From Actinomyces sp. oral taxon 170 str. F0386 (GTDB lineage Bacteria; Actinomycetota; Actinomycetes; Actinomycetales; Actinomycetaceae), in assembly GCF_000195595.1 (NCBI RefSeq), contig NZ_GL882514.1, forward strand, positions 1-33,978: a DNA stretch of 33,978 nt, given 5' to 3'. Below the pieces are notes generated by a model. It was not told where the DNA came from. It did no database searches and saw only the letters and a program-made list of their open reading frames with translations. Below, one piece after another: positions 18,011-31,573 of the stretch. The first letter of the stretch is position 1. Each line of letters starts with the position of its first letter. A program made the position numbers and the translations under genes.

Positions 18011-18835
18011 ATGCGGATCGGTTTCATCGGTGCCGGTAACATGGTCAGTGCGATCGTGCGAGGGGCGGTGGCCGCGGGAACACCCGCCGGGCACCTCCTG
18101 CTCACCAGCAAGCACGGTTCCGCCGAGCGCCTGGCGGCCCAGGTGGGGGCCGTCCACGTGCCCGACGCCGCCGACCTGGTCTCACGCAGTGACATCCTCA
18201 TCCTGGGGGTCAAGCCCTACGTCATCCCCAGCGTGCTCACCGGGCTCTCCGAGGCCATCGGCCGCAGCAAGCCTCTGGTGGTCTCCATCGCAGCCGGCCT
18301 GACGCTGGAGCGCCTCGAGTCGATGCTGCCCGAGGGTACCCGGGTGGTGCGCACGATGCCGAACATGGCAGCGGCGGTGGGCGAGTCCATGACGGCACTG
18401 GCCCCGGGGAGCAGCACCGGCGCCCACGACCTGGAGACGGTGCGCACCCTCATGGAGACGATCGGACGGACCGTCATCCTGGAGGAGAAGGACTTCTCCG
18501 CCTTCATCGGCCTGGCGGGGTCCTCCCCCGCCCTGGTGTGCGCCTTCGTCGACGCTTTGGCCCGCGCCGGCGTCATGGGCGGCCTCCCCAAGGCCCTGGC
18601 CGTCCAGATCGTGGCCCAGGCCGTCCTGGGGACTGCCCGAACCGTGCAGACCGAGGCCCAGCGCACCGCCGAGGGCGGGCACGGGCGCACCCCGGCCGAC
18701 CTCATCGACGCGGTCTGCTCCCCCGGCGGCACGTCGGTGGCCGGCATGGTGGCCCTGGAGCGCGCCGGTTTCTCCGACGCCGTCATACGCGCTTTCGAGG
18801 CCATCGTCGAACGGGACCGTGAGCTGGGCGCATAG
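18011..18835 (+). CDS. proC: Pyrroline-5-carboxylate reductase
   Basis: Catalyses the last step of proline synthesis, reducing pyrroline-5-carboxylate with NAD(P)H. The 274-residue protein has the Rossmann motif GFIGAGNM (residues 4-11), VKPYVIP, RTMPNMAAAVGES, GLAGSSPALV and the C-terminal CSPGGTSVAGM signature. A strong AGGAGG precedes the ATG. It stands alone between the permease and the sulfur operon. Confidence 0.96.
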   Translation: MRIGFIGAGNMVSAIVRGAVAAGTPAGHLLLTSKHGSAERLAAQVGAVHVPDAADLVSRSDILILGVKPYVIPSVLTGLSEAIGRSKPLVVSIAAGLTLERLESMLPEGTRVVRTMPNMAAAVGESMTALAPGSSTGAHDLETVRTLMETIGRTVILEEKDFSAFIGLAGSSPALVCAFVDALARAGVMGGLPKALAVQIVAQAVLGTARTVQTEAQRTAEGGHGRTPADLIDAVCSPGGTSVAGMVALERAGFSDAVIRAFEAIVERDRELGA

Positions 18836-18850
18836 CCGCGAGCGCGCTCA

Positions 18851-18886
18851 GGCACCCACTCGGCACCCACTCGCCAGCAGGGGTGC
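18851..18886 (+). repeat. 11-bp tandem repeat and small hairpin after proC
   Basis: GGCACCCACTC occurs twice in tandem (18851-18861, 18862-18872). GCACCC in the second copy can pair with GGGTGC (18881-18886). The structure might serve as a weak proC terminator; the nearest T-run is about 18 nt further on. Confidence 0.35.
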
Positions 18887-18901
18887 GTGTCACGCCGAGC
18901 A

Positions 18902-18931
18902 ACCTTTTTCATTGTTCTACAAGGAAAAGGT
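18902..18931. promoter_or_regulatory. Operator-like dyad upstream of the sulfur operon
   Basis: ACCTTTT (18902-18908) and AAAAGGT (18925-18931) flank an inner dyad TTGT-TCT-ACAA (18912-18922) with nearly the same centre, giving a nested 30-bp dyad. It lies just upstream of a TTGACG sequence (18936) and about 45 bp before the better promoter at 18977. It is likely a site for a dimeric regulator; it might also be part of proC termination. Confidence 0.45.
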
Positions 18932-18976
18932 CACCTTGACGACGACGGCGTGAGCGGCAGCACATATCTTCACTAC

Positions 18977-19005
18977 TTGCCGTCACTTACCTACCCCGCT
19001 ACGGT
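18977..19005 (+). promoter_or_regulatory. Promoter of the sulfur assimilation operon
   Basis: TTGCCG (18977-18982), a 17-nt spacer and TACGGT (19000-19005, TANNNT type) form a good promoter. Transcription would start about 19012-19013, that is, at the ATG of the leader ORF, predicting a leaderless message. Confidence 0.7.
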
Positions 19006-19012
19006 TTTCGCC

Positions 19013-19099
19013 ATGACCTTCTCTCACGCAGCTCTTTTCAGCGGTGTTTATCCCGCTGAAATTCTGCGTGCTCACGCGGTCATGTGTTGTCGGGCCTGA
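19013..19099 (+). CDS. Cys-Cys leader peptide upstream of the sulfur operon (probable cysteine attenuator)
   Basis: A 28-codon ORF begins ATG-ACC-TTC (MTFSHAAL) exactly where the promoter at 18977-19005 would start transcription, so it is probably read from a leaderless mRNA. It ends VMCCRA followed by TGA, with tandem TGT-TGT at 19085-19090, two codons before the end. Cysteine-rich leaderless small ORFs upstream of cysteine genes are known in mycobacteria, and short Cys-containing leader peptides occur before sulfur genes in streptomycetes. The stop is 188 nt before sulfite reductase. An in-frame GTG at 18887 would make a longer ORF but lies upstream of the promoter. The function (ribosome stalling when Cys-tRNA is scarce) is inferred. 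Confidence 0.75.
   Translation: MTFSHAALFSGVYPAEILRAHAVMCCRA
19025..19070 (+). promoter_or_regulatory. Two-tier RNA hairpin inside the leader ORF
   Basis: CACGCAG (19025-19031) pairs with CTGCGTG (19064-19070), and TTTCAGCGG (19036-19044) pairs with CCGCTGAAA (19053-19061), giving 16 bp with a small internal loop and an 8-nt apical loop. It ends 14 nt before the Cys codons, so a ribosome on the leader must melt it. Confidence 0.6.
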
Positions 19100-19239
19100 C
19101 CAGCGCCTGACACCACGGGGACTTCACCCCCGCAACGAGGTATCCGGCGCAACGAAGCGTCCGGAAGGCCCCGTTGAAGCGGCTGACGCCAACCGAACGG
19201 CTCTACAGGCTCTGTACGCAGCAGCACCCCAGGCCGGCC

Positions 19240-19290
19240 CCGGACGCTCCTCATGTGCCAATGACACGTCACCGTCATGGAGGAGCAATG
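19240..19290 (+). promoter_or_regulatory. SD-sequestering hairpin before sulfite reductase
   Basis: The strong SD GGAGGAG (19279-19285), two bases before the ATG at 19288, lies in GAGGAGC (19280-19286), which pairs perfectly with GCTCCTC (19246-19252); ATG/CAT inside can extend it past a bulge. An exclusive alternative exists: AGCGTCCGG (19156-19164) pairs over 9 bp with CCGGACGCT (19240-19248), taking three bases of the anti-SD. This is the layout of a translational switch. The folding is inferred by eye. Confidence 0.6.
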
Positions 19291-20991
19291 ACCACCACCG
19301 TCACGCCACCTGCCCGCACCGTGCGCCCACCGCGCAAGGCCCGGTCGAACGGCCAGTGGGCCCTCGACGGGCGCAATCCGCTCAATGACAACGAGGCCTT
19401 CAAGCAGGACGGTTCCCCGCTGGCGGTACGCGAACGGATCGTGAACATCTACGGCCCCGGCGGCTACGAGACCATCGCACCCGACGACCTCAACGGCCGT
19501 TTCCGCTGGTGGGGTCTGTACACCCAGCGCAAGCAGGGTATCGACGGGGGCCGCACCGCCCAGCTGGACGCCTCCGAGCTCTCCGACCGCTATTTCCTGC
19601 AGCGGGTGCGCCTGGACGGCGGGAGCCTGAGCCGTGAGCAGCTGCGTGTGCTGGGTTCGGTCTCCAACGACTTCGCCCGCGGCACGGCGGACATCACCGA
19701 CAGGCAGAACATCCAGCTCCACTGGGTCGAGATTGACAACGTGCCCGAGCTGTGGCGCAGCCTGGAGTCGGTGGGTCTGACCACGATCGAGGGCTGCGGG
19801 GACACGCCTCGAGGGTTCCTGGTCTCCCCGGTGGCCGGCATCGCCAAGGACGAGGTCATCGATCCGACCCCGCTGGCCGAGGCCATCAAGGCCACCTACC
19901 TCGGCGACCCCGAGCTGGCCAACCTGCCCCGCAAGTTCAAGACCGCCATCACCGGCTCCCCCAGCCTCGACATCCTCCACGAGATCAACGACATCTCCTT
20001 CGTCGGCGTCAACCACCCCGAGCTTGGTCCCGGCTATGACCTGTGGGTGGCCGGCGCCCTGTCCACCGCCCCACGTCTGGGTCAGCGGCTGGGGGCCTTC
20101 GTCACGCCTGAGGACGCCCTGGACGTCTGGTACGGCGTCATCCGCATCTTCCGCGACTACGGCTACCGTCGCCTGCGCAACAAGGCCCGGCTGAAGTTCC
20201 TCATGGCCGAGTGGGGGCCGGAGAAGTTCCGCCAGGTCCTCCAGGACGACTACCTGGGGCGCGCCCTACCCGACGGGCCGGCCCCCGAGGAGCCGAGCGG
20301 GGACTCCGACCACATCGGCGTCCACGAGCAGAAGGACGGCCGCTTCTGGGTGGGGGCCAAGCCGCCGGTCGGCCGGTTGAGCGGGGACGTCCTGCTGGGC
20401 CTGGCAGACCTGGCCGAGCAGGTCGGCTCGGACCGGGTGCGCACCACCCCGCTGCAGAACCTGCTGCTCCTGGACGTGCCGGCTGACAGGGTCGACGACG
20501 CCGTCGCCGGCCTGCAGGAGCTGGGGCTCGATCCCGACCCGGGCGCTTTCACCCGCTCGACCCTGGCCTGCACCGGGCTGGAGTTCTGCAAGTTCGCGAT
20601 CGTGGAGACCAAGAAGCTGGCGGCGCGGGTCTCGGCCGAGCTCGACGCGCGTCTGGCTGACACCGACCTGGAGCGGCGCATCACCCTGACCGTCAACGGC
20701 TGCCCGAACTCCTGCGCCCGCATCCAGATCGCGGATATCGGCCTCAAGGGCCAGATCATCACGGTCGACGGTGAGCAGATGCCCGGCTTCCAGGTGCACC
20801 TGGGCGGTGGCCTGGCCGCCGACGGACGCGCCGAGGCCGGCCTGGGCCGCACGGTGCGCGGGCTCAAGGTCCCCGCCTCCGGCCTGACCGACTACGTCGA
20901 GCGCCTGGTGCGCCGCTACCTGGACCAGCGCCTCCCCGAGGAGAGCTTCGCCCAGTGGGCGCACCGAGCCGAGGAGGAGGACCTCGCATGA
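19288..20991 (+). CDS. sirA: Assimilatory sulfite reductase (ferredoxin-type, siroheme)
   Basis: Reduces sulfite to sulfide with six electrons, using siroheme and a 4Fe-4S cluster. The 567-residue protein has cluster ligands C428 and C434 (CTGLEFC) and C472 and C476 (CPNSC). Y78 (WGLYTQRKQG) and C170 are 92 residues apart, the same spacing as the Tyr69-Cys161 pair next to siroheme in M. tuberculosis SirA (NirA), which marks this as a sulfite and not a nitrite reductase. There is no flavin domain, so ferredoxin is the probable donor. The ATG at 19288 has GGAGGAG right before it; upstream in-frame ATGs at 19174 and 19261 fall in the leader RNA. First gene of the operon; it overlaps cysH by 4 nt. 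Confidence 0.93.
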   Translation: MTTTVTPPARTVRPPRKARSNGQWALDGRNPLNDNEAFKQDGSPLAVRERIVNIYGPGGYETIAPDDLNGRFRWWGLYTQRKQGIDGGRTAQLDASELSDRYFLQRVRLDGGSLSREQLRVLGSVSNDFARGTADITDRQNIQLHWVEIDNVPELWRSLESVGLTTIEGCGDTPRGFLVSPVAGIAKDEVIDPTPLAEAIKATYLGDPELANLPRKFKTAITGSPSLDILHEINDISFVGVNHPELGPGYDLWVAGALSTAPRLGQRLGAFVTPEDALDVWYGVIRIFRDYGYRRLRNKARLKFLMAEWGPEKFRQVLQDDYLGRALPDGPAPEEPSGDSDHIGVHEQKDGRFWVGAKPPVGRLSGDVLLGLADLAEQVGSDRVRTTPLQNLLLLDVPADRVDDAVAGLQELGLDPDPGAFTRSTLACTGLEFCKFAIVETKKLAARVSAELDARLADTDLERRITLTVNGCPNSCARIQIADIGLKGQIITVDGEQMPGFQVHLGGGLAADGRAEAGLGRTVRGLKVPASGLTDYVERLVRRYLDQRLPEESFAQWAHRAEEEDLA

Positions 20992-21746
20992 GCCTGGCAG
21001 CAACCGCCGCGTCGTCCGGCGTCCCGCACCGGACGGAGACGACCCCCCGACTGCGCCCCAAGGAGGAGCTGCGCGAGCTGGCCGAGGCCGGGACTCGCGA
21101 GCTCGGTGACGACGCCGAGGCCCTCGACGTCGCCCAGTGGGCGGCCCAGAACTTCCCCAGCACACTCGCCGTGGCCTGCTCCATGGCCGACGCCGTCCTG
21201 CCGCACGTGGTCTCCCGGGTCCTGCCCGGCGTCGACGTCCTCTTCCTGGACACCGGGTACCACTTCGCGGAGACCATGGGTACCCGTGACGCGGTGGCCG
21301 CCACCATGGACGTCACCGTCGTCGACGTGGCTCCTGAGCTGACCGTGGCCGAGCAGGACGCACGCTACGGACCGGACCTGTGGTCACGAGACCCGGCCGC
21401 ATGCTGCCGTCTGCGCAAGGTCGAGCCGCTGGCCCGGGCCCTGAGCGGCTACGAGGCGTGGGCCACCGGGGTGCGGCGCGAGGACGCACCCACCCGCACC
21501 CGCACGCCCCTGATCGGCTGGGACGCCACCCACGAGATCGTCAAGATCAACCCCCTGGCCGCCTGGACCATGGAGGAACTGACCGACTACGCCGAACAGC
21601 ACGGGGTGCTCATCAACCCCCTCCTGTACGACGGCTATCCCTCGATCGGCTGCGCCCCATGCACGGCACGAGTCATGCCCGGAGACGACCCCCGTTCCGG
21701 CCGCTGGGCCGGATTCACCAAGACAGAATGCGGAATCCACCTATGA
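20988..21746 (+). CDS. cysH: Adenylylsulfate (APS) reductase, 4Fe-4S type
   Basis: Reduces APS to sulfite and AMP using thioredoxin. The 252-residue protein has the two cysteine pairs that hold the cluster in APS reductases, C139-C140 (AACCRLRK) and C222-x2-C225 (GCAPC), which are absent from PAPS-specific enzymes, and the catalytic C248 in the C-terminal KTECGIHL. The N-terminal ATP-PPase-like fold includes AVACSMADAV and FLDTGYHF. The ATG overlaps the sirA stop and the stop overlaps cysD (ATGA, 4 nt each). Use of APS directly explains why no APS kinase is present here. Confidence 0.95.
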   Translation: MSLAATAASSGVPHRTETTPRLRPKEELRELAEAGTRELGDDAEALDVAQWAAQNFPSTLAVACSMADAVLPHVVSRVLPGVDVLFLDTGYHFAETMGTRDAVAATMDVTVVDVAPELTVAEQDARYGPDLWSRDPAACCRLRKVEPLARALSGYEAWATGVRREDAPTRTRTPLIGWDATHEIVKINPLAAWTMEELTDYAEQHGVLINPLLYDGYPSIGCAPCTARVMPGDDPRSGRWAGFTKTECGIHL

Positions 21747-22753
21747 GCATCACCCTGACCCTCACCCAATCGGCCCCGATCTCCTCCCCCGACCCTGCTC
21801 AGGCGCCGGGCCTCGAACCGGTCGGTCTCACTGACCTTTCCGGGGCCGCCACGGCCACCGAGGCCCTGGACATCCTCGATGTCCTGGAGGCCGAGGCCAT
21901 CCTCGTCATCAGGGAGATCGCCGCCGAGTGCCGCCGCCCGGTACTGCTGTTCTCCGGGGGCAAGGACTCCGTGGTCATGCTGCACCTGGCGCGCAAGGCC
22001 TTCTGGCCCGCTCCGATCCCCTTCCCGGTCCTGCACGTGGACACCGGTCATAACTTCCCCGAGGTGCTGGCCTACCGCGACCAGACGGTCGAGGACCTCG
22101 GACTGCGGCTGGTGGTGGCCCGGGTCCAGGACTACATCGACGACGGTCGTCTGCGCGAGCGCACCGACGGCACCCGCAACCCGCTCCAGACGATCCCACT
22201 CCTCGACGCCATCGAGGAGGGCGGCTTCGACGGCGTCTTCGGCGGCGGGCGCCGCGACGAGGAGAAGGCCCGCGCCAAGGAGCGCATCGTCTCCTTGCGC
22301 GACGAGTTCGGCCAGTGGGACCCGCGCAACCAGCGCCCCGAGCTGTGGAACCTTCTCAACCCCCGCCACCGCCCCGGCGAGCACGTGCGGGTCTTCCCGT
22401 TGAGCAACTGGACCGAGCTGGACGTGTGGCGCTACATCGAGCGCGAGGACATCGAGCTGCCCGGCCTCTACTACGCCCACGAGCGCGAGGTGTTCCTGCG
22501 CGACGGCATGTGGCTGGCCGCCGGCGGCGTCAACCGGCTGCGCGACGGCGAGGAGGTGGTCACCCGCACCGTGCGCTACCGCACCGTGGGCGACATGTCC
22601 TGCACGGGCGCCGTCGAGTCCGGGGCCGCCACCAACCACGACATCGTCCTGGAGGTCGCCGCCTCCACCCTGACCGAGCGGGGAGCCACCCGCGCCGATG
22701 ACCGTCTCAGCGAGGCGGCCATGGAGGACCGCAAGAAGGAGGGCTACTTCTGA
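21743..22753 (+). CDS. cysD: Sulfate adenylyltransferase small subunit
   Basis: With CysN makes APS from ATP and sulfate. The 336-residue protein has the PP-loop SGGKDS (71-76), HVDTGHNFPEV, GGRRDEEKARAKER and the C-terminal RYRTVGDMSCTGAVES, all typical of CysD. It is somewhat longer than the usual 300 or so because of about 35 extra N-terminal residues (Pro/Ser/Ala-rich). The ATG at 21743 overlaps cysH by 4 nt and the stop shares one base with cysN. Confidence 0.96.
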   Translation: MSITLTLTQSAPISSPDPAQAPGLEPVGLTDLSGAATATEALDILDVLEAEAILVIREIAAECRRPVLLFSGGKDSVVMLHLARKAFWPAPIPFPVLHVDTGHNFPEVLAYRDQTVEDLGLRLVVARVQDYIDDGRLRERTDGTRNPLQTIPLLDAIEEGGFDGVFGGGRRDEEKARAKERIVSLRDEFGQWDPRNQRPELWNLLNPRHRPGEHVRVFPLSNWTELDVWRYIEREDIELPGLYYAHEREVFLRDGMWLAAGGVNRLRDGEEVVTRTVRYRTVGDMSCTGAVESGAATNHDIVLEVAASTLTERGATRADDRLSEAAMEDRKKEGYF

Positions 22754-24108
22754 TGAGCACCCCCACCCTCACCGATATCCCCGCCGAGGCGGAGGCGCGC
22801 GCCGCCACCGGTTCGCTGCTGCGCCTGGCCACGGCCGGCAGCGTCGACGACGGCAAGTCCACGCTCGTGGGTCGCCTGCTGTTCGACTCCAAGTCCGTGC
22901 TGCGCGACCAGCTGGCCGCCGTCGAGCAGGTCAGCCTGGACCGAGGCCTGACCAGCGCGGACCTCGCGCTGCTGACCGACGGGCTGCGGGCCGAGCGCGA
23001 GCAGGGCATCACGATCGACGTCGCCTACCGCTACTTCGCCACCCCGAGGCGCTCCTTCATCCTGGCCGACTGCCCCGGGCACGTGCAGTACACCCGCAAC
23101 ACAGTCACCGGCTGCTCCACGGCCGACGTCGTCGTGCTGCTGGTGGACGCCCGCAACGGGGTCCTGGAGCAGACGCGCCGTCACCTGGCGGTCGCCGCGC
23201 TCCTACGGGTCCCGCACGTCGTCATCGCGGTCAACAAGATCGACCTGGTGGACTTCTCCGCCGAGGTCTACGCAGGTATCGAGGCCGACATCCGCGCCGT
23301 GGCCGCAGAGCTGGGCGTGGCCGCGATCCACGTTCTGCCGACCTCCGCGCTCCTGGGCGACAACATCGTCGAGGCCTCGGCCAGCACGCCCTTCTACGAG
23401 GGGCCGACCCTGCTGGGGCTCCTGGAGTCCCTGCCCACCGCCCGCGACGAGGGCGCCTTCCGCCTGCCGGTCCAGCTGGTCATCCGTCCCCAGGGCGCCG
23501 CTCCGACTCCGGAGCTGCGCGACTACCGGGGTTACGCCGGGCAGATCGCCTCGGGCACGGTGCGCGTCGGCGACCCCATCGTGGTTCTGCCCTCGGGCAG
23601 GCGCTCACGCGTGGCCGGCATCGACCTGGGCGAGCGCAACCTGGAGGAGGCCGTTGAGGGCCAGTCCGTCACGGTTCGTCTGGCCGACGACGTCGACGTA
23701 GCCCGCGGCGACACCCTGGCCGCGGCGGACGATGCGCCCCAGGTGCTCACCGAGGTCGAGGCCCGCGTGTCCTGGCTGAGCGAGGAGCCCCTGCGCCCCC
23801 GGGCGCGGGTGCTGCTCAAGCACGGCGCCCAGACGGTCCAGGCGATTGTGCGCACCATCGAGGGCCGCCTCGACCTGGACGACCTGACCACGGTGCAGGC
23901 GGACGCCCTTGAGCTCAACGACATCGGCCTGGTGCAGTTGCGCCTGGCCTCCCCGGTGCCGTTGGCCGACTACTCGGTCTCCCGGTCCGACGGCGCCTTC
24001 CTCCTCATCGACGCCCATGAGGGCGGCACACTCGGGGCGGGCATGGTGCAGCTGGCGAGCACAGGCAGCAGCGAACCGGCTGCGGCCGTCTCCTCCGGCA
24101 GGGGCTGA
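22753..24108 (+). CDS. cysN: Sulfate adenylyltransferase GTPase subunit
   Basis: The GTPase that drives ATP sulfurylase. The 451-residue protein has G1 GSVDDGKS (29-36), G2 in GITIDVAYRYF, G3 DCPGH (106-110) and G4 NKID (161-164), then two beta-barrel domains. There is no C-terminal APS kinase domain (as in CysNC), fitting a pathway that goes through APS reductase. The start overlaps the cysD stop by one base (TGATG). Confidence 0.96.
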   Translation: MSTPTLTDIPAEAEARAATGSLLRLATAGSVDDGKSTLVGRLLFDSKSVLRDQLAAVEQVSLDRGLTSADLALLTDGLRAEREQGITIDVAYRYFATPRRSFILADCPGHVQYTRNTVTGCSTADVVVLLVDARNGVLEQTRRHLAVAALLRVPHVVIAVNKIDLVDFSAEVYAGIEADIRAVAAELGVAAIHVLPTSALLGDNIVEASASTPFYEGPTLLGLLESLPTARDEGAFRLPVQLVIRPQGAAPTPELRDYRGYAGQIASGTVRVGDPIVVLPSGRRSRVAGIDLGERNLEEAVEGQSVTVRLADDVDVARGDTLAAADDAPQVLTEVEARVSWLSEEPLRPRARVLLKHGAQTVQAIVRTIEGRLDLDDLTTVQADALELNDIGLVQLRLASPVPLADYSVSRSDGAFLLIDAHEGGTLGAGMVQLASTGSSEPAAAVSSGRG

Positions 24109-24111
24109 GGC

Positions 24112-24975
24112 ATGGCCCGCGAGATCTCACCTGATACGCCTGCGGCCTCGGAGTCCTCAGCAGCCCCGTCCGTGCCATCACCGTCGGCCTCGCCGTCTGC
24201 ACCGGGTTCCGGCCCCGGGCAGCCCACCGGCTGGGTGGCGCTGGTGGGCGGTGGCCCGGGCAGCAGCGGTCTCATCACCGCCCGTGGTCTGGAGCTGCTG
24301 GGCCAGGCGGACACGGTCGTCGTCGACGCGCTGGCGCCCCGAGACCTCCTGGAGGATCTCCGCCCCGGCACCGAGGTCATCGACGCCTCCAAGCGGCGCG
24401 GCCTGCACGTCATGAGTCAGGAGGAGATCGATGCGCTCCTGGTCGACCTGGCCCGCCGCGGCAAGGGGGTGGTCCGTCTCAAGGGCGGAGACCCCTACGT
24501 GCTCGGGCGTGGCGGAGAGGAGGCCGCCGCCTGCCGTGGGGCAGGTGTCGCCGTCGAGGTCGTCCCGGGGATCACCAGCGCCATCGCCGTGCCCGCGGCG
24601 GCGGGGATCCCCGTCACGCACCGGGGCCTGTCGCGCGGCTTCTCGGTCATCACGGCTCATTCGGATCTCGGGGTACTCCCCCAGCGCCGCGATCACACAC
24701 TCATCCTGCTCATGGGGGTCTCCCGGCTGCGGGACTCAGTCACCTCCCTGCTGGAGGCCGGCAGCGATCCGGCCACTCCGGCGGCGATCATCGAGCGCGG
24801 CTACCACCCCGACCAGCGCGTGACCACCACCGAGCTGCGATGTCTGGCCGACGTCGCCACGCGGTACGGCGTGACCGCCCCCGCGGTCATCGTCATCGGC
24901 GACGTCGTCACCCTGAGCCCGTACTGGGCCGACCGAGTCGTCGAGGAGACCAGGCCGGCAAGCCCCGCCGCTTGA
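24112..24975 (+). CDS. cobA: Uroporphyrinogen-III C-methyltransferase (SUMT)
   Basis: Methylates uroporphyrinogen III twice to give precorrin-2, the first committed step to siroheme. The 287-residue protein has VGGGPGSSGLITARG, RLKGGDPYVLGRGGEEA, VVPGITSAIAVPAAAGIPVTHR and LMGV, all typical of SUMT. The first 40 residues are a Ser/Pro/Ala-rich extension with no family match, so a later start is possible. It is not fused to a precorrin-2 dehydrogenase (as in CysG). Placed 3 nt after cysN, it most likely serves the sulfite reductase. Confidence 0.93.
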   Translation: MAREISPDTPAASESSAAPSVPSPSASPSAPGSGPGQPTGWVALVGGGPGSSGLITARGLELLGQADTVVVDALAPRDLLEDLRPGTEVIDASKRRGLHVMSQEEIDALLVDLARRGKGVVRLKGGDPYVLGRGGEEAAACRGAGVAVEVVPGITSAIAVPAAAGIPVTHRGLSRGFSVITAHSDLGVLPQRRDHTLILLMGVSRLRDSVTSLLEAGSDPATPAAIIERGYHPDQRVTTTELRCLADVATRYGVTAPAVIVIGDVVTLSPYWADRVVEETRPASPAA

Positions 24976-25017: not shown

Positions 25018-26061
25018 ATGCGTAAGCTCGTCCTTCTCGCCCTCGTCGGCCTGGCCGCTCAACTGGTCGACGGCTCCCTCGGGATGGGGTACGGCATGAC
25101 CTCGTCCTCCCTGCTACTTCTGGCCGGACTGAGCCCGGCACTGGCCTCGGCCTCGGTGCACCTGGCTGAGATCGGCACGACCCTGGCCTCGGGGGCCTCC
25201 CACTGGCGACTGGGCAACACCGACCCCCGCCTGGTGGTCCGGCTGGGGCTGCCCGGTGCGGTGGGGGCCTTCAGCGGCGCCACGGTCCTGTCGCACCTGT
25301 CGACCCGCGCAGCGACCCCGGTGACGGCGAGCCTGCTGATCCTGCTGGGGGCCTATGTTCTGGGGCGTTTCGCCCTACGCCCGCCCCGAGGCTCTGGTAG
25401 CCGGCGCTCCCCGCACGGCAGACGGCTCCTGGTTCCTCTGGGGATGGTGGGCGGTTTCGTTGACGCCACCGGCGGTGGCGGCTGGGGACCGGTGGTGACG
25501 ACGACGCTGCTCACGGGCGGTCGCACGGCGCCACGCACCGTTGTCGGCTCGGTGGGGGCCTCGGAGTTCCTGGTGACGGCGGCGGCCTCGGCCGGGTTCC
25601 TCACCGGACTGGGCACGGCGGGCATCAGCCTCGGGATCGTCCTGGCCCTGCTGGCCGGCGGGCTGGTGGCGGCTCCGATCGCCGCCTGGCTGGTCTCCCG
25701 TCTGCCCGGAGCGGTGCTGGGCACCGCCGTCGGCGGGCTGATCCTGACCACAAACCTGCGAGTCCTGCTGTCCTGGGCCGAGGCCTCGGCCCGAACCGGG
25801 GTCATGGTGTACGGCGCGCTCGGGGTGATCTGGGCGGCCTTCCTGACCCTGGCGATCCGCAAGGCGCGGGCTAGTGCCAAAGACATCCGCGAGGAGACCG
25901 ATCAGGCACTTGAGGAGGTCCGATCCACTCATCAGCGCGGCCACGCACCTGAGGTTGCTGTACCGGACGATCCGATCACCGCCGGTGGGCCCGTCAGGCC
26001 GGTGTCGGTCGAGCCGGCTCGTTCTCGCACGCACGCAGATCTGGTGGTGGAACCGGTATGA
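25018..26061 (+). CDS. TauE/SafE-family permease, probably for a sulfur oxyanion
   Basis: A 347-residue integral membrane protein with about eight segments. It shows the family pattern of two related halves, LVDGSLGMGYGMTSSSLLLLAG near the N-terminus and GGFVDATGGGGWGPVVTTTLL after the middle, and ends in a hydrophilic tail of about 60 residues. TauE/SafE proteins are linked to export of sulfite or related sulfonates, and some actinobacterial members lie in sulfate assimilation operons where uptake is suspected. The ATG has GGAG at good spacing. It overlaps the chelatase gene by 4 nt, so it belongs to the operon. Direction of transport cannot be told. Confidence 0.85.
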   Translation: MRKLVLLALVGLAAQLVDGSLGMGYGMTSSSLLLLAGLSPALASASVHLAEIGTTLASGASHWRLGNTDPRLVVRLGLPGAVGAFSGATVLSHLSTRAATPVTASLLILLGAYVLGRFALRPPRGSGSRRSPHGRRLLVPLGMVGGFVDATGGGGWGPVVTTTLLTGGRTAPRTVVGSVGASEFLVTAAASAGFLTGLGTAGISLGIVLALLAGGLVAAPIAAWLVSRLPGAVLGTAVGGLILTTNLRVLLSWAEASARTGVMVYGALGVIWAAFLTLAIRKARASAKDIREETDQALEEVRSTHQRGHAPEVAVPDDPITAGGPVRPVSVEPARSRTHADLVVEPV

Positions 26062-26744
26062 GCACTCGTCCTCTGGTGCTGCTCGCCCACGGCTCGCGCC
26101 GGCCCGGGCCGTCCTCAGTCATGTCCCGCACCGCCGAGCGCGTCCGCACGATCCTACCGGCGGTGGAGGTGCGCACAGGCTACATCGAGCTCCAGCCCCC
26201 GGACCCGGCCACGGCGCTGGAGGGGCTGGTGGATCCGGTGGTGCTGCCCTTCTTCCTGGCCCGCGGCTATCACGTCCTCAATGACGTACCGGCCGCGGTA
26301 GAGCGACACGGGTCGGGGACGGTCACCGGGCACCTGGGAGTCGAGGAGCACCTGGTGGAGGCCGTCGCGCAGCGTCTCCACGAGGCATCCGCGTCCCTGG
26401 GCGGGCTCGCAGGACTCGACCACATCGTCCTGGGCGCGGCCGGGTCACGTCAGGGGGCGGCTCTGGAGGAGGTCGAGGCCATCACCCGCTTGCTCGAAGC
26501 GCGTCTGGGACGCAGGGTAACGCCCGCCTACCTCTCGGCTGCGCGCCCCAGCGTCCGTGACGCGGTGAGCTCGGCCCGGGCCCGGGGTGCCAGGCGGGTG
26601 GGTGTGGCCACCTACCTGCTGGCGGAAGGGCGTTTCCATCGGGCCCTGCACTCCACGGGCGCCGACGTCGTGGCCGCTCCCATCGGCGACCACCCGACGG
26701 TCGCCGAGCTGGTGGTCCACCGCTACCGGGAGCAGCTCGCCTGA
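26058..26744 (+). CDS. Sirohydrochlorin chelatase (CbiX/SirB family)
   Basis: Inserts iron (or cobalt) into sirohydrochlorin; in this operon ferrochelation to siroheme is expected. The 228-residue protein has the metal-binding start LLLAHGSRRPG (H11), a family-typical LPFFLARGYHVLNDVP, and a second related half with GVATYLLAEGRFH. This two-lobe size is normal for the long CbiX/SirB form. The start overlaps the permease stop by 4 nt. Last gene of the sulfur operon; the next gene is convergent. Confidence 0.9.
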   Translation: MSTRPLVLLAHGSRRPGPSSVMSRTAERVRTILPAVEVRTGYIELQPPDPATALEGLVDPVVLPFFLARGYHVLNDVPAAVERHGSGTVTGHLGVEEHLVEAVAQRLHEASASLGGLAGLDHIVLGAAGSRQGAALEEVEAITRLLEARLGRRVTPAYLSAARPSVRDAVSSARARGARRVGVATYLLAEGRFHRALHSTGADVVAAPIGDHPTVAELVVHRYREQLA

Positions 26745-26843: not shown

Positions 26844-27647
26844 TCAGTCGTCTGCCGTATCAAGGAGCCGCTCGGACAGGCGCTGGATGATGGGCTCGAT
26901 CTCCTGCGAGGTGGTGGCTGCGGCACTCACGCGGCCGAAGATGCCCACCGCAAGGAGCCCGAAGGCCGTCTCCTCATCCTGCTGGCTCGGCTCGCGGCGT
27001 CCGTGGGAACGGGCCACCAGGTGGGAGGTCTCTCTCAGCCAGCGGCGCCAGGTGCCGGCCAGCCTGTCGCGGGAGTCCTCATGACGAATCGCGTAGAGCC
27101 AGGTCTCCAGGTGCAGGACAACATCCTCCATGGGAAGCTCCTGGAGCTGCTCACTCCACTGCTCGGGGCTCGCCATCTCCCGAGTGGCCTCATCCGAGCT
27201 CTCCTCACCACAGGTGACGACTTCCAGGAACAGAGCCTCCTTGGAGGGGAAGGAGGAGTAGAAGGCGCCCTTGGTGAATCCAGCGGCCGAGGCGATGTCG
27301 CTGACCGCTGCCCCCTCGTAGCCCTTGGCGGCGAAGACCTCCCGGGCGGCGGTCAGGAGCCGCGCCCGGGTCTCCTCGCTCCGACGGCGTCCACCGCCCC
27401 GCCCCGAGGCGGCGCCGCTGACTGCAGTGGAGGCGGAGGCCAGCTTCCGGGAGGCGAGGTCCAGGGAGGCCGCTACCGCACTCTCACTGCTCCGGCGCGC
27501 TCCCTGACCGGCCGCCCCCACTGCACGGGAGAAGGCGGTGATCGCCTCATTGAGGGCGCGCGTCGCCTCCCTGATGTCATCAGAGGCGGAGGCCCCGGAG
27601 TCATCACTGTCACTGTTCGTCCCACGGGCGGAGCTCCTGGCGGTCAT
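26844..27647 (-). CDS. TetR-family transcriptional regulator with long N-terminal extension
   Basis: A 267-residue regulator. The TetR_N DNA-binding domain lies at about 92-138 (SEETRARLLTAAREVFAAKG, then the helix-turn-helix AVSDIASAAGFTKGAFYSSF), and the C-terminal part is helical as in ligand-binding domains. The first 85 residues are unusual: Ser/Asp-rich, then a helical Ala-rich stretch. No internal Met allows a shorter form. The ATG at 27647 lies 6 nt after TACAGT, a possible -10, so it may also be read from a leaderless transcript. It follows the ABC permease gene and probably controls the ABC ATPase/permease pair. Confidence 0.9.
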   Translation of the reverse strand: MTARSSARGTNSDSDDSGASASDDIREATRALNEAITAFSRAVGAAGQGARRSSESAVAASLDLASRKLASASTAVSGAASGRGGGRRRSEETRARLLTAAREVFAAKGYEGAAVSDIASAAGFTKGAFYSSFPSKEALFLEVVTCGEESSDEATREMASPEQWSEQLQELPMEDVVLHLETWLYAIRHEDSRDRLAGTWRRWLRETSHLVARSHGRREPSQQDEETAFGLLAVGIFGRVSAAATTSQEIEPIIQRLSERLLDTADD

Positions 27648-27754
27648 GCCCCCACTGTAGAGGAGGCCCCTCAGAAAGGGGTTCACGGCACTTCCCCCCT
27701 CCACGTTCGTCACTCCCTCCACCGGTCTCCGACCATGCGGACATCCCGGCCGAC

Positions 27755-28552
27755 TCAGGGCCGCCTTCCCAGGGCCCATGACGCTCCGGCGACGGCCACC
27801 AGGCACCATCCCCCCAGGAGGCCCCAGGAACGGGCGGGCATGCTGGCGTCGTGCGAGAACAGTCCCGCACGCACCACCTGAGCCATGGGCTCGAAGGGCA
27901 GCCAGCGGTGGATCTCCTGGGCCCAGTCGGGGAGCCTGTCGGCAGGGAAGCTGACGGGCGAGAACAGCATGATGCTGAAGGCGAGCACCTGGGAGAGGAT
28001 CTGAGCCAGGGCCGGAGCCAGGAGCGTGGCGATGGCATATCCGATGCAGGCCGCTGTCAGGGCGACCAGCACGGCGCCGGGCACCAGCCACCACTGCGGG
28101 GCGAGGTCGACGTCGAAGCGGGCGTTGGCGACGATGACGCCCACAACCAGGCCGGGCAGTGCAAGAGCGGTCCAGATCGCGAGGTCTGCCAGGAGGAAGG
28201 CGATCCTGGGGACGGGCAGGGTGCGCATCCAGTCCAGGCTGCCCTCAGTGCGGGACTGGGAGACCCACTGAGGCGTCATGATGAGTCCCAGCGAGATGAG
28301 CGCGATCGCCGGGCCGCCGCCGGCCAGGTAGAGACTCGCCTCGCGGCCTGGGTGGCCCGCAATGAGCCCGTATCCCAGGACCATGGAGACGGACAGCAGC
28401 GTCTGGACGATGATGAAGAGAGGAAGCACGGGCAGGCTGCGTCGGAACTGCCATTGAACAAGCAGGCCGAGCTGGTACCAGAGCGGAGTCACCCGAGGGC
28501 CGGTGCCACCGGCCTGGTCCGGATCAGCAGTCGTACTGGTTGGAGTAGACAT
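27755..28552 (-). CDS. ABC-2 type transporter permease
   Basis: A 265-residue membrane protein with about six segments and a cytoplasmic N-terminus, of the ABC-2 type exporter permease kind. The segment VSQSRTEGSLDWMRTLPVPR between segments 2 and 3 resembles the coupling region of such permeases. AAGGAG (plus 28559-28564) is 6 nt from the ATG at 28552, so MSTPTSTT is preferred over ATGs at 28555 and 28567. It lies downstream of its ATPase and probably forms an exporter for a drug, lipid or peptide. Confidence 0.85.
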   Translation of the reverse strand: MSTPTSTTADPDQAGGTGPRVTPLWYQLGLLVQWQFRRSLPVLPLFIIVQTLLSVSMVLGYGLIAGHPGREASLYLAGGGPAIALISLGLIMTPQWVSQSRTEGSLDWMRTLPVPRIAFLLADLAIWTALALPGLVVGVIVANARFDVDLAPQWWLVPGAVLVALTAACIGYAIATLLAPALAQILSQVLAFSIMLFSPVSFPADRLPDWAQEIHRWLPFEPMAQVVRAGLFSHDASMPARSWGLLGGWCLVAVAGASWALGRRP

Positions 28553-28669
28553 CATGTTCTCCTTCATTTCCTGATTCTCTGGGGATGGGAGTCGCGCCGC
28601 GCTTACGCGGCAGCACGGGGACGACGCGAATCATCGGGACGGGCCGGGCCTCCCGCGGATTCACAGAGT

Positions 28670-29623
28670 TCAGGCGGCATGACGGCGCACCTCCTCTCCC
28701 GTACTCCCGGTGAGATCGACGTAGACGTCCTCCAGTGAGATCGGTGCCAGCTCATAGCGCTCGATCGCTCCGTCCCTGAGGGCGTGAGCGGCCCACTCCA
28801 CGGCCTGCGTCGTACGGTGAGAGTCCACCGCCACGGATGCACGCGCGGCGTCGTGCTGTGTCAGGCTCATTCCCGCGGGAGGCTCGATCCGCCGGCCGGG
28901 AGTCCGGCTGATCTCCAGGACGAAGGACGATCCGTGGCCGGCCACGAGTGCTGCGGGAGTTCCCTCGGCAATGACGTGACCGTGGTCCAGGATGGTGAGG
29001 CGGTCGACCGCCCGTTCGGCCTCCCGCACATTGTGGGTCACGAGGAGGACCGCGGATCCAGCATCGGCCAGGAGGCGGATCTGGTCCCACAGCAGGCGAC
29101 GGCGTACCGGGTCGACGTCATTGGTGGGCTCGTCGAGGATGACCAGGCGCCCGGGGACGACGGCGCACATGGCGAAGGCCGTCAGACGGGCAACGCCACC
29201 GGAGATCTTCTGTGCGGGAGTCGTGGCCCACTCCCCCAGGTCGAGGGCCTCGATGAGCTCCTCGGCGCGTCTGCGCGTCTGACGCGGACGCCCTCCTCGC
29301 AGGCGCCCCACGAGGTCGATGGCCGTCAGAGGAGTGAGCCCCGTGATGGGGACATTGGCCTGTGCCTGGACGTTGGTGAGACGGCGGGCGAGAGCGGGGT
29401 CGGCGACGGCGTCGACTCCGTCGAGCCTGATGCTCCCGGAGGTTGGACGCAGCAGCCCCACCACCTGGTTGACCAGCGTGGTCTTGCCCGCGCCATTGTG
29501 CCCGAGGAGCCCGACCACCTCGCCGGCACCCACCCGCATGGTGACGCCGGCGTTGGCTCTCACCGTGTGCGATCCGCTTCCGAAGTGCTTGTGAAGGTCC
29601 TCAATGGCTAGAACGTCGGCCAT
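28670..29623 (-). CDS. ABC transporter ATP-binding protein
   Basis: The 317-residue ATPase partner of the ABC-2 permease. Walker A is GHNGAGKT (41-48), Q-loop around Q86-Q88, Walker B LVILDEPT (160-167), and the H-loop H197 (LLVTHN). The signature is ISGGV (140-144) where LSGGQ is usual, with VARLTAFAMCAVVPGRL after it. A C-terminal domain of about 90 residues follows, as in DrrA/NodI-like exporters. AAGGAGGAGG precedes the ATG. The 102 nt to the permease holds nothing recognised. Confidence 0.92.
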   Translation of the reverse strand: MADVLAIEDLHKHFGSGSHTVRANAGVTMRVGAGEVVGLLGHNGAGKTTLVNQVVGLLRPTSGSIRLDGVDAVADPALARRLTNVQAQANVPITGLTPLTAIDLVGRLRGGRPRQTRRRAEELIEALDLGEWATTPAQKISGGVARLTAFAMCAVVPGRLVILDEPTNDVDPVRRRLLWDQIRLLADAGSAVLLVTHNVREAERAVDRLTILDHGHVIAEGTPAALVAGHGSSFVLEISRTPGRRIEPPAGMSLTQHDAARASVAVDSHRTTQAVEWAAHALRDGAIERYELAPISLEDVYVDLTGSTGEEVRRHAA

Positions 29624-29682
29624 GAAACCTCCTCCTTTCGTTCAACTACCTGGACCGAGCACCCGATCGCCCATCAGACGAT

Positions 29683-29709
29683 CCGTACCGGTTGGTATCA
29701 ACCATACCA
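29683..29709. promoter_or_regulatory. Operator-like repeats over the ABC/TetR operon promoter
   Basis: CCGTACCGGTTGGTATCAAC is followed by CATACC and contains overlapping dyads: TACC/GGTA, GGTTG-GTAT-CAACC and GGTAT-CAACC-ATACC. On the minus strand TTGGCA is followed after 17 nt by TGATAC within this cluster, a possible promoter for the ATPase gene. A binding site for the TetR regulator encoded downstream is a natural guess. Confidence 0.5.
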
Positions 29710-29763
29710 CTCAGTATTGCCAAGAGATTTCATGGGACTTTAAGGGCTCTCATAGCAACAGAA

Positions 29764-29797
29764 ACGCTGTCCCGTACCGATCGGTACGGGACAGCGT
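29764..29797 (-). terminator. Perfect 34-bp palindrome, terminator of the ABC half-transporter operon
   Basis: Two 17-nt arms meet without a loop at 29780/29781. On the minus strand it lies 36 nt past the stop at 29834 and is followed by TTCTGTT, so a terminator is likely. Its inner CCGTACCG/CGGTACGG octamers also occur in the operator cluster 75 bp away, so it could bind a protein too. Confidence 0.7.
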
Positions 29798-29833
29798 CTA
29801 CCCGCCATTCTGTCTTGCCCGAAGCGGCCTGCA

Positions 29834-31573
29834 TCACCCCTGACGGATATGCCAGCGCGAGGAGGCCGTGGAGGCCTCGATGAAGTCACGGAAGGGACCG
29901 GGGACGGCGGCCAGCTCCTGCGGCGTACCGCACTGGGCCACACGGGCACCGGCCCCAGTCGGTTCGAGGAAGACGACCTCATCGGCCTGACGGACGGTGG
30001 ACAGACGATGGGCCACCATGATGACGGTGCGGCCTTCGGAGAGCTCGCGCACGACCTCGGTGATGGCTGACTCGTTCTCCCCGTCTAGGGCCGAGGTGAT
30101 CTCGTCGAGCAGGAGGATCGGGGCGTCCTTGACGAAGGCACGGGCGATGGCGACGCGCTGACGCTCCCCACCGGACAGGCTCAGCCCGCCGGGACCGACC
30201 TGCGTGTCCCACCCGCGCGGGAGTGCCTCGACGACGCGGTCCAGGCGGGCTCGGCGGACGGCCTCGGCCAGCTCGGCATCGGTGGCCTCGGGCCGGGCGA
30301 TGCGCAGGTTCTCCCTGATGGTGGTGTCGAACAGGTAGACGTCTTGGAAGACCATGGAGGTCATGCTCATGATCGTTGCGGCTCGTATGGATCGCACCGG
30401 CACCCCGCCGATCGTGACAGTTCCGTCGTCGACGTCCCAGAACCGGGCGGCCAGACGCAGAATCGTGGACTTGCCCGCACCCGACGGGCCCACCAGGGCG
30501 GTCACCCTCCCCTGGGGCGCGGTCAGCGACACGCCCGCCAGAACGGGGCGCCCCTCGTCATAGGAGAAGGAGACATCACTCAATGCGACCGTGGTTCCCT
30601 GAGGGGCGATCTCCTGCCCGGGCTCAGGATCGGGCAGGGGGCGCGCGTCGAGGATGTCCCCCACAGCCCGCAGAGCGACCTTCGTGTTGTCCGCCTCGGA
30701 GGCGTACATGGCGGCCTTGGTCAGCGGCAGGAGCGTGCGCGCGGTGACGGCCATGATCGCGAGGTAGGCGACGACGTCGAGCCGGTGACCGCTCACGCGC
30801 GACAGACCGACCGCCATGACCAGTGCGAAGGCGACGTTGACGATGAGGTTGAAGTACTGGCCGGGCCGGCCTTTGACGCGCAGACCGTCAAGCATGGACT
30901 CTGCGTCGTCCTCAAGGGCGGAGCGCACCGGAGCCCAGCCAGTCCTGGTGACGCCCGTGGCGCGCAGCACCGGCTGGAGGCGGGCGAACTCCACGAGCCG
31001 GCCGGCGGCAGCGCTCGAGGTGCGGTCCTCCATCTCATTGGCACGGGTGGTGGCGGCCCCCATGAGGCGCAGCACGAGGACCAGAGGGATGATGGTAGCG
31101 GCCATGATAAGAGCCAGAGGCCACTCGACGAAGGCGGTGGCCCCCAGCATCACCAGCGGCACGATGAAGGCGTTGCACAGGTTGGCGATCACCATGGAGG
31201 TCAGATGGGACAGGGTGTTGACCTCCTTGGATGTGGCATTGACGACGGCGGCCTCCCGCTCCGCGCTGAACCACCCCAGTGGCAGGGTCAGGACGTGCTC
31301 GGCAATACGGTCGATCATGGTGTCGCAGATCTCGAAGACGCTGACCCGGTAGGACCGGTACATGGCAGTGGTGTCAACGATGAGGACGCTCACCCCCAGA
31401 ATGACGACGGCGATCAGCCAGCCGGTCAACGACTCCGAGCGCGAGAAGAGGGCACGCAGGAAGGGGATCATGAGAGCGAGGGTGAGGCCCTGAAGGACGG
31501 CGGAGGCCACGAACCAGGCGGTAATGACCCGGATCTCGACGGCGTTGACGACTCGTGTCAGCAGCTTCCACAT
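29834..31573 (-). CDS. ABC half-transporter with fused ATPase, IrtB/YbtQ-like
   Basis: A 579-residue protein with an N-terminal six-helix membrane domain (1-310) and a C-terminal ATPase: Walker A GPSGAGKS (362-369), LSGGE (466-470), Walker B ILLLDE (486-491), H-loop H522. The stretches FQDVYLFDTTIRENLRI and LLLDEITSALD are typical of the YbtQ/IrtB group of siderophore transporters, which have an exporter fold but import iron-siderophores. It starts 2 nt after its partner gene, so the two form a heterodimer. Substrate assignment is an inference; drug or peptide export remains possible. Confidence 0.88.
   Translation of the reverse strand: MWKLLTRVVNAVEIRVITAWFVASAVLQGLTLALMIPFLRALFSRSESLTGWLIAVVILGVSVLIVDTTAMYRSYRVSVFEICDTMIDRIAEHVLTLPLGWFSAEREAAVVNATSKEVNTLSHLTSMVIANLCNAFIVPLVMLGATAFVEWPLALIMAATIIPLVLVLRLMGAATTRANEMEDRTSSAAAGRLVEFARLQPVLRATGVTRTGWAPVRSALEDDAESMLDGLRVKGRPGQYFNLIVNVAFALVMAVGLSRVSGHRLDVVAYLAIMAVTARTLLPLTKAAMYASEADNTKVALRAVGDILDARPLPDPEPGQEIAPQGTTVALSDVSFSYDEGRPVLAGVSLTAPQGRVTALVGPSGAGKSTILRLAARFWDVDDGTVTIGGVPVRSIRAATIMSMTSMVFQDVYLFDTTIRENLRIARPEATDAELAEAVRRARLDRVVEALPRGWDTQVGPGGLSLSGGERQRVAIARAFVKDAPILLLDEITSALDGENESAITEVVRELSEGRTVIMVAHRLSTVRQADEVVFLEPTGAGARVAQCGTPQELAAVPGPFRDFIEASTASSRWHIRQG

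Follow-up and report, generated by a model that had tools for sequence, protein, structure and literature searches.

A Cys-Cys leader ORF with conserved alternative RNA pairings precedes the sulfate assimilation operon of Actinomyces and is probably a ribosome-read cysteine attenuator

The sulfate assimilation operon of Actinomyces sp. oral taxon 170 str. F0386 is almost certainly preceded by a cysteine leader, a short open reading frame (ORF) that ends with two tandem Cys codons and is followed by six RNA segments with competing pairings. We propose that this leader is probably a cysteine-responsive attenuator of the operon, read by the ribosome, similar to the histidine attenuator and acting on the start of translation. 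It lies in a DNA stretch of 33,978 nucleotides (the window; contig NZ_GL882514.1, positions 1 to 33,978), whose features are listed in Table 1.

Direct reading of the sequence confirmed what a first-pass annotation of the window had described, namely a TTGCCG-17-TACGGT promoter and a 28-codon ORF ending with TGT TGT, Arg, Ala and stop. The frame closes with TGT TGT CGG GCC TGA (last nucleotide 19099) and its ATG at 19013 stands 7 nt 3' of TACGGT. Among 872 short ORFs of 8-60 codons, counted with nested starts on both strands of the window, five have Cys-Cys at most four residues from the stop and one has TANNNT 6-7 nt 5' of its start; the leader ORF is the sole one with both. TGT is an uncommon choice for Cys in this region (1 of 23 codons across nine neighbouring genes). 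No family of the NCBIfam leader-peptide profiles matched the 28 aa peptide at E ≤ 1, and Rfam covariance models gave no match at gathering score over the whole window, the lone sub-threshold match being on the other strand (E = 0.66). The leader frame is also open 5'-ward (18950-19012) to a GTG at 18950, ahead of the promoter, as it is in most of the A. oris group. This in-frame start (49 codons) was rejected, as the promoter overlaps it and no good Shine-Dalgarno sequence was seen before the GTG, and the open stretch is probably incidental.

Table 1. Features of the leader, the operon and a second leader of the same genome
Feature	Position	Strand	Remark
Promoter -35, TTGCCG	18977-18982	+	read directly from sequence
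Promoter -10, TACGGT	19000-19005	+	17 nt spacer from -35
Short ORF, MTFSHAALFSGVYPAEILRAHAVMCCRA and stop	19013-19099	+	28 codons, predicted leaderless
Cys-Cys codons, TGT TGT	19085-19090	+	predicted stall site
Segment 1, TCGGGC	19090-19095	+	can pair with 2; adjoins Cys codons
Segment 2, GCGCCTGA	19103-19110	+	beyond stop; can pair with 1 or 3
Small hairpin, variable sequence	19116-19132	+	between segments 2 and 3
Segment 3, TCCGGCGC	19143-19150	+	can pair with 2 or 4
Segment 4, GCGTCCGGA	19157-19165	+	can pair with 3 (hairpin) or 5
Segment 5, CCGGACGCTCCTC	19240-19252	+	first 8 nt can pair with 4, last 7 nt with Shine-Dalgarno region
Segment 6	19279-19290	+	Shine-Dalgarno GGAGGAG (19279-19285) and sir start codon (19288-19290)
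sir, ferredoxin-type sulfite reductase	19288-20991	+	PF01077, PF03460
cysH, (phospho)adenylylsulfate reductase	20988-21746	+	PF01507, NF002537
cysD, sulfate adenylyltransferase small subunit	21743-22753	+	TIGR02039
cysN, sulfate adenylyltransferase large subunit	22753-24108	+	TIGR02034
cobA, uroporphyrinogen-III C-methyltransferase	24112-24975	+	TIGR01469
TauE/SafE-family permease	25018-26061	+	PF01925
cbiX/sirB-like siroheme chelatase	26058-26744	+	PF01903
Five-Cys leader L140 (outside the window)	G000:C13, about 31735-31749	-	before amino-acid ABC transporter

Pfam and NCBIfam established the gene order sir-cysH-cysD-cysN-cobA-TauE-cbiX 3' of the leader, in agreement with the sulfite reductase and cys/siroheme operon annotated 188 nt beyond its stop (19100-19287, before the sir ATG at 19288). 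The NCBIfam sulfite/nitrite reductase models matched sir below their cut-offs; the cysH profile matches were taken from the ORF start at 20955, and the ATG overlapping the sir stop was picked by eye. The gene 5' of the leader is proC (18011-18835). On the minus strand 3' of the operon (26844-31573), an ORF with a TetR-like stretch was seen by eye beside ABC transporter genes.

Of 49 genomes in the genus, 28 encode Sir, and the same 28 were the Sir-positive ones (E ≤ 1e-50) among 213 genomes of the family. All 28 carry the short ORF before sir, and 27 of these leaders are distinct. The leader starts with ATGACC in 26 loci and GTGACC in two, where for L005 the ATG matching neighbouring loci was taken instead of the filter's longer GTG start. 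TANNNT stands 7 nt from this start in 26 loci and 6 nt in two, against a background of 0.003 per position (54/17,807 in upstream regions, leader sites included). This fixed distance in 28/28 supports the leaderless start suggested by the first-pass annotation, and we infer leaderless translation from it. The same annotation had called the promoter good. The -10 position is indeed kept in 28/28, but scanning 18600-19400 with a generic sigma-70 model gave no promoter-like site, so that the case for the promoter is its conservation; a TTGNNG-like -35 is present in the closest relatives (L002-L012, L014) and absent from many other loci of the genus.

Cys-Cys is present in all 28 loci, encoded by TGTTGT (23) or TGCTGT (5) with synonymous variation at the first codon, while the leader codons 5' of the pair diverge. 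Conserved Cys codons with variable flanks had been proposed as a check, and the result supports, as far as comparison of sequences can, an equivalent of the mycobacterial cysteine sensor in this lineage. Met-Cys-Cys-(Gln/Arg)-Ala forms the peptide end in 23 loci and lies one residue from it in five, with two or three codons, respectively, between the Cys pair and the stop. Among the 11 closest loci pN/pS was 0.32 in the leader frame, against 1.03 and 1.19 when the frame was shifted. Scanning named genomes yielded 39 loci, including 14 from Actinomyces that belong in part to the same genomes as the other genus loci; the leader was found in 14/14. The 25 named loci from other genera comprise nine with a Cys-Cys leader recognised by the filter, one with a diverged leader (L058, ending CSCLCRCR) and 15 with none. 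Seven Isoptericola loci and Krasilnikoviella end with CCCR and Luteimicrobium has CCC, all in the same place before sir and without Met directly before the run. That the ORF arose by chance in a conserved untranslated region and has no regulatory role is hardly credible. The frame open to GTG 18950 in most of the A. oris group would fit such an origin, but the 28/28 conservation with a fixed -10 distance, the low pN/pS in the leader frame only, and the polyCys leaders at the same place in these three other genera argue against it.

The first-pass annotation had missed the six RNA segments 3' of the Cys codons, which allow helices 1:2, 3:4 and 5:6 or, in competition with these, 2:3 and 4:5. They appear in the 28 leaders as common islands amid poorly alignable sequence. 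Segment 1 has the genus form TCRGGC, and it begins on the final base of the second Cys codon; segment 4 reads GCGTCCGG across the genus leaders, and segment 5 reads CCGGACGCTC, about 9-55 nt 5' of the Shine-Dalgarno region. The interval between segments 2 and 3 can form at least four pairs in 28/28 leaders (-1.6 to -13.2 kcal/mol, values that carry no shuffle control). Segments 1 and 2 are complementary at six of six positions in 27/27 distinct sir leaders (162/162 cells, L102 left out), and standard pairs fill 140/140 cells of 2:3, 222/224 of 3:4 and 213/216 of 4:5 (L027 left out), although these counts are favoured because the segments were located via their own motifs. Independent of them, exact CCGGACGC occurs 3' of segment 4 in 22/27 distinct leaders versus 131/10,800 shuffles (1.2%). 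Segment 5 is irregular, with a C-A mismatch in L017, L019 and L020 and an extra base in L027, and in 6/27 leaders the 4:5 match was no better than in shuffles (p > 0.05).

Segments 1-4 hardly vary, and since every segment serves two partners, covariation is scarce; double changes are confined to the small hairpin. The leaders exceeded shuffled-column controls for the cells paired, the cells with double changes and the covariation score, and did not exceed them for the pairs with double changes (186/500) or the pair types (498/500). RNAalifold folded the whole leader into 1:2-like and 3:4 helices with a few outer pairs and showed none of the alternative helices. Segments 3, 4 and 5 could also be read as DNA sites of a transcription factor, with TCCGG/CCGGA repeats beside an incidental short ORF. 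The palindrome TCCGGA is found in segment 4 of most leaders, and some have it in segment 5 too. Segments 3, 4 and 5 lie 130-240 nt 3' of where transcription is predicted to start, conservation extends to segments 1 and 2, and the Cys frame is under selection, which together make this reading highly improbable.

An RNA model (R1) was built from the 24 leaders that are distinct in a shorter stretch and was thus bound to find the 28; it found each of them once, beside sir, and nothing further in those genomes at E ≤ 0.1. Elsewhere it gave weak matches only: two in G019 and one in G199 among the 213 family genomes, and three among 396 genomes of the order. By eye, no Cys-Cys leader was seen at the weak matches G019:C21 (L101), G199 (L100/L103), G386, G478 and G214 (L104-L106). 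The Isoptericola and Krasilnikoviella leaders (L044, L046, L047, L049, L050, L061, L068, L070) have another conserved RNA, CGCGCC..CTCAG with CTGAG..GGCGCG, and an analogue of the 2:3 helix seems to exist in these eight aligned sequences.

We propose that transcription starts at the ATG of the leaderless 28-codon ORF. If Cys-tRNA is ample, the ribosome would reach the stop, cover segments 1 and 2 and then leave. Segment 3 would pair with 4, which keeps 5 free for the Shine-Dalgarno sequence or start codon of sir, and translation would be low. If Cys-tRNA is scarce, the ribosome would wait with a Cys codon in its A site and cover segment 1 alone. Segment 2 would then pair with 3, the released segment 4 would pair with 5, and the sir start region would be freed. 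The annotation had predicted that slow decoding would hold the ribosome at one defined spot; this fits the RNA, since the conserved segment 1 immediately follows the Cys codons and is able to pair with 2 in 27/27 distinct leaders. We consider such a 1-2-3-4-5 RNA switch, and hence the cascade, likely. For its output, we lean slightly towards the start of translation.

The evidence for this output lies in segment 5, whose 3' half has at least six pairs with the Shine-Dalgarno or start region of sir in 19/28 leaders. In 12 of these, namely the A. oris group and L023, the partner is the Shine-Dalgarno region, while in seven it is the start codon; only 0-7% of the other 9-mers of each leader match as well. 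In the remaining nine, G019 included, there are 4-5 pairs; eight of the 28 are at background level (21-81% of other 9-mers as good) and L013 is borderline (7%). Since 4:5 and 5:6 overlap by only about 2 nt, they need not exclude each other.

Folding was computed for the RNA beyond the ribosome edge only, with offsets counted from the start of the first Cys codon. The usual ribosome footprint extends to +15 to +17, so the edge of a Cys-stalled ribosome is expected at 13-17 nt. With nothing covered, the window leader is predicted to have 6.9 pairs in 1:2, 7.3 in 3:4, 0.7 in 4:5 and 2.7 in 5:6. An edge at 15 gives 4.9 pairs in 2:3, 2.2 in 3:4, 5.4 in 4:5 and 1.4 in 5:6, most of 3:4 being replaced by 2:3 and 4:5, and an edge at 27 (the stop) gives 7.1 in 3:4, 0.8 in 4:5 and 2.7 in 5:6. 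The predicted probability that the Shine-Dalgarno sequence of the window is unpaired is 0.34-0.39 at edges 12-18 and 0.11-0.15 at 0-9 and 21-45, and it rises again at edges ≥51, where segment 3 is approached. Between offsets 27 and 15 the gain in 4:5 is at least one pair in 10/27 leaders and less than one pair in 17/27, with an equal loss in 0/27; in L028 and L029, 4:5 is largely formed in every computed ribosome state. At offset 15 compared to 24 the unpaired probability of the Shine-Dalgarno sequence is up by at least 0.05 in only 6/27 leaders and down likewise in one. The energy for opening the sir Shine-Dalgarno sequence in 28 leaders showed no consistent change between stall and stop (Wilcoxon p = 0.39): beyond 0.3 kcal/mol, six leaders fit and five are opposite, and the window leader differs by 0.2 in the right direction. 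Stall versus uncovered RNA gave six that fit and six opposite (p = 0.75).

This lack of a consistent change would suit a cysteine leader that acts via transcription, where Rho gains access to the C-rich leader once the ribosome is released, and 4:5 or 5:6 does no more than tune the outcome. The plus strand of 18600-19400 also has no terminator-like site, and hence no intrinsic terminator with a U run before sir; the one such site in this region is on the minus strand. Rho was proposed in 2005 for the cys leaders of mycobacteria and P. acnes, because terminators were lacking (Seliverstov et al., PMC1262725). The Rho reading does not call for the complementarity of segment 5 to the Shine-Dalgarno sequence (12) or start codon (7) in 19/28 leaders, and we regard it as unlikely.

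Met precedes the Cys run directly in all 28 sir leaders (19082-19090 for Met and the Cys pair in the window), and GTC precedes the Met ATG in 26/28 (alignment of 24 plus four duplicates). A second setting of Met-Cys runs was found before amino-acid ABC transporters. Outside the window, the same genome encodes a leader ending VHMWMCCCCCR behind AGGAGG and GTG (Table 1). It precedes an ABC transporter, so this one genome carries two or more differently built cysteine leaders. Of 13 matches to TGYTGYTGYTGY in the genome, 11 were set aside by eye and the other two are one ABC leader twice; neighbouring frames were viewed at 6/13, and the short Cys-run frames L138 and L139 may conceivably be leaders too. 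The ABC ATPase (E ≤ 1e-85) occurs in 42/49 genus genomes at 50 places. Thirty of these places were examined: 25 have an upstream run of three or more Cys codons shortly before a stop, G019 has two and four have none, and Met directly precedes the run in 26/30, G019 included. Most of these places thus use a Cys-run leader that is apparently Shine-Dalgarno-led and separate from the sir type.

The Sir-less Actinomyces G019 (L102:1440-1620, G019:C14) has a leader ending DLMCCRP together with segments 3, 4 and 5 before the amino-acid ABC ATPase. It is one of the two weak R1 matches in this genome and a real leader. Its segment 2 reads GTGCC, where pairing with 3 is kept via U-G, and no -10 at leaderless distance is recognisable before it. 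The three best NCBIfam matches of the ATPase were EhuA, GlnQ and TcyN, all below cut-offs; from the leader only, we infer cystine as the transporter substrate.

The recurrence of Met before the Cys run in sir and ABC leaders, and of GTC before Met, might point to a nascent peptide, Met-Cys-Cys-Gln/Arg-Ala, that arrests the ribosome and senses something besides Cys-tRNA. Such an arrest peptide is very improbable, since RNA segment 1 overlaps those codons and explains Gln/Arg-Ala, the leaders outside the genus have no Met directly before the CCC run, and Met-Cys-Cys is all that the ABC leaders share. Met sensing and an internal start are further candidate explanations for the recurring Met codon. 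For the ribosome-read switch we propose a two-codon sensor: a ribosome stalled at Met-Cys-Cys would mask one segment and a finishing one would mask two, which feeds a cascade onto the translation start. In this fuller form, with a module that moves between genes and a genus that uses two leader designs for one signal, we hold the proposal to be evenly poised.

The histidine operon attenuator of enteric bacteria forms helices A:B, C:D and E:F versus B:C and D:E. The Actinomyces leader resembles it in that its alternative helices would form an odd-even cascade governed by where the ribosome stands. It differs in having a ribosome-binding region in place of the terminator, two regulatory codons instead of seven, and a predicted leaderless ORF. 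In M. smegmatis, leaderless polyCys ORFs reportedly attenuate translation (Canestrari 2020, as cited in PMC13236596, PMC9094748, PMC9031893). They and the Actinomyces leader, which is predicted to be leaderless too and is proposed to attenuate translation likewise, have in common a short ORF and contiguous Cys codons before cysteine genes; consecutive Cys codons near the stop were found in 28/28 leaders, and the location before cysteine/sulfur genes is the same. In contrast to the mycobacterial attenuators, the Actinomyces leader has only two Cys codons, Met before the run and six defined segments for alternative pairing, and belongs to a different lineage.

Candidate cys leader peptides without terminators were predicted in 2005 for Mycobacterium, Propionibacterium acnes and Bifidobacterium longum; in the alignment of the mycobacterial ones no conserved terminator hairpins were found (Seliverstov et al., PMC1262725). 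Actinomyces naeslundii was among the genomes of that study and is unnamed in its cysteine section. Like the candidates of that section, the Actinomyces leader is short, carries its Cys codons close to the end of the frame and has no obvious terminator. The short Cys-Cys tract at the stop, called unusual in the first-pass annotation, is present, but tandem Cys codons have a precedent in the uORFC-8-2 motif before cysS of Rhodobacterales, usually at codons 14-15 (PMC8632094). As presented there, this motif likewise joins a tandem Cys pair, set in a short upstream ORF, to RNA structure, but it has an intrinsic terminator, precedes cysS and occurs in alphaproteobacteria.

In its working principle the Actinomyces leader belongs with the known Cys leaders. 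This looks like a known kind of control in a new and unusually well-defined design, and our literature search found no report of such a leader in Actinomyces. It would take cysteine control by the translating ribosome beyond mycobacteria into a major oral genus, with a concrete RNA mechanism, and provides 28 related leaders with one common segment set, compared to the Cys leader predictions of 2005, which lacked conserved structure. With two regulatory codons and a conserved spacing, it may offer a compact system for the precision with which ribosome position is read and for attenuation on a leaderless message.
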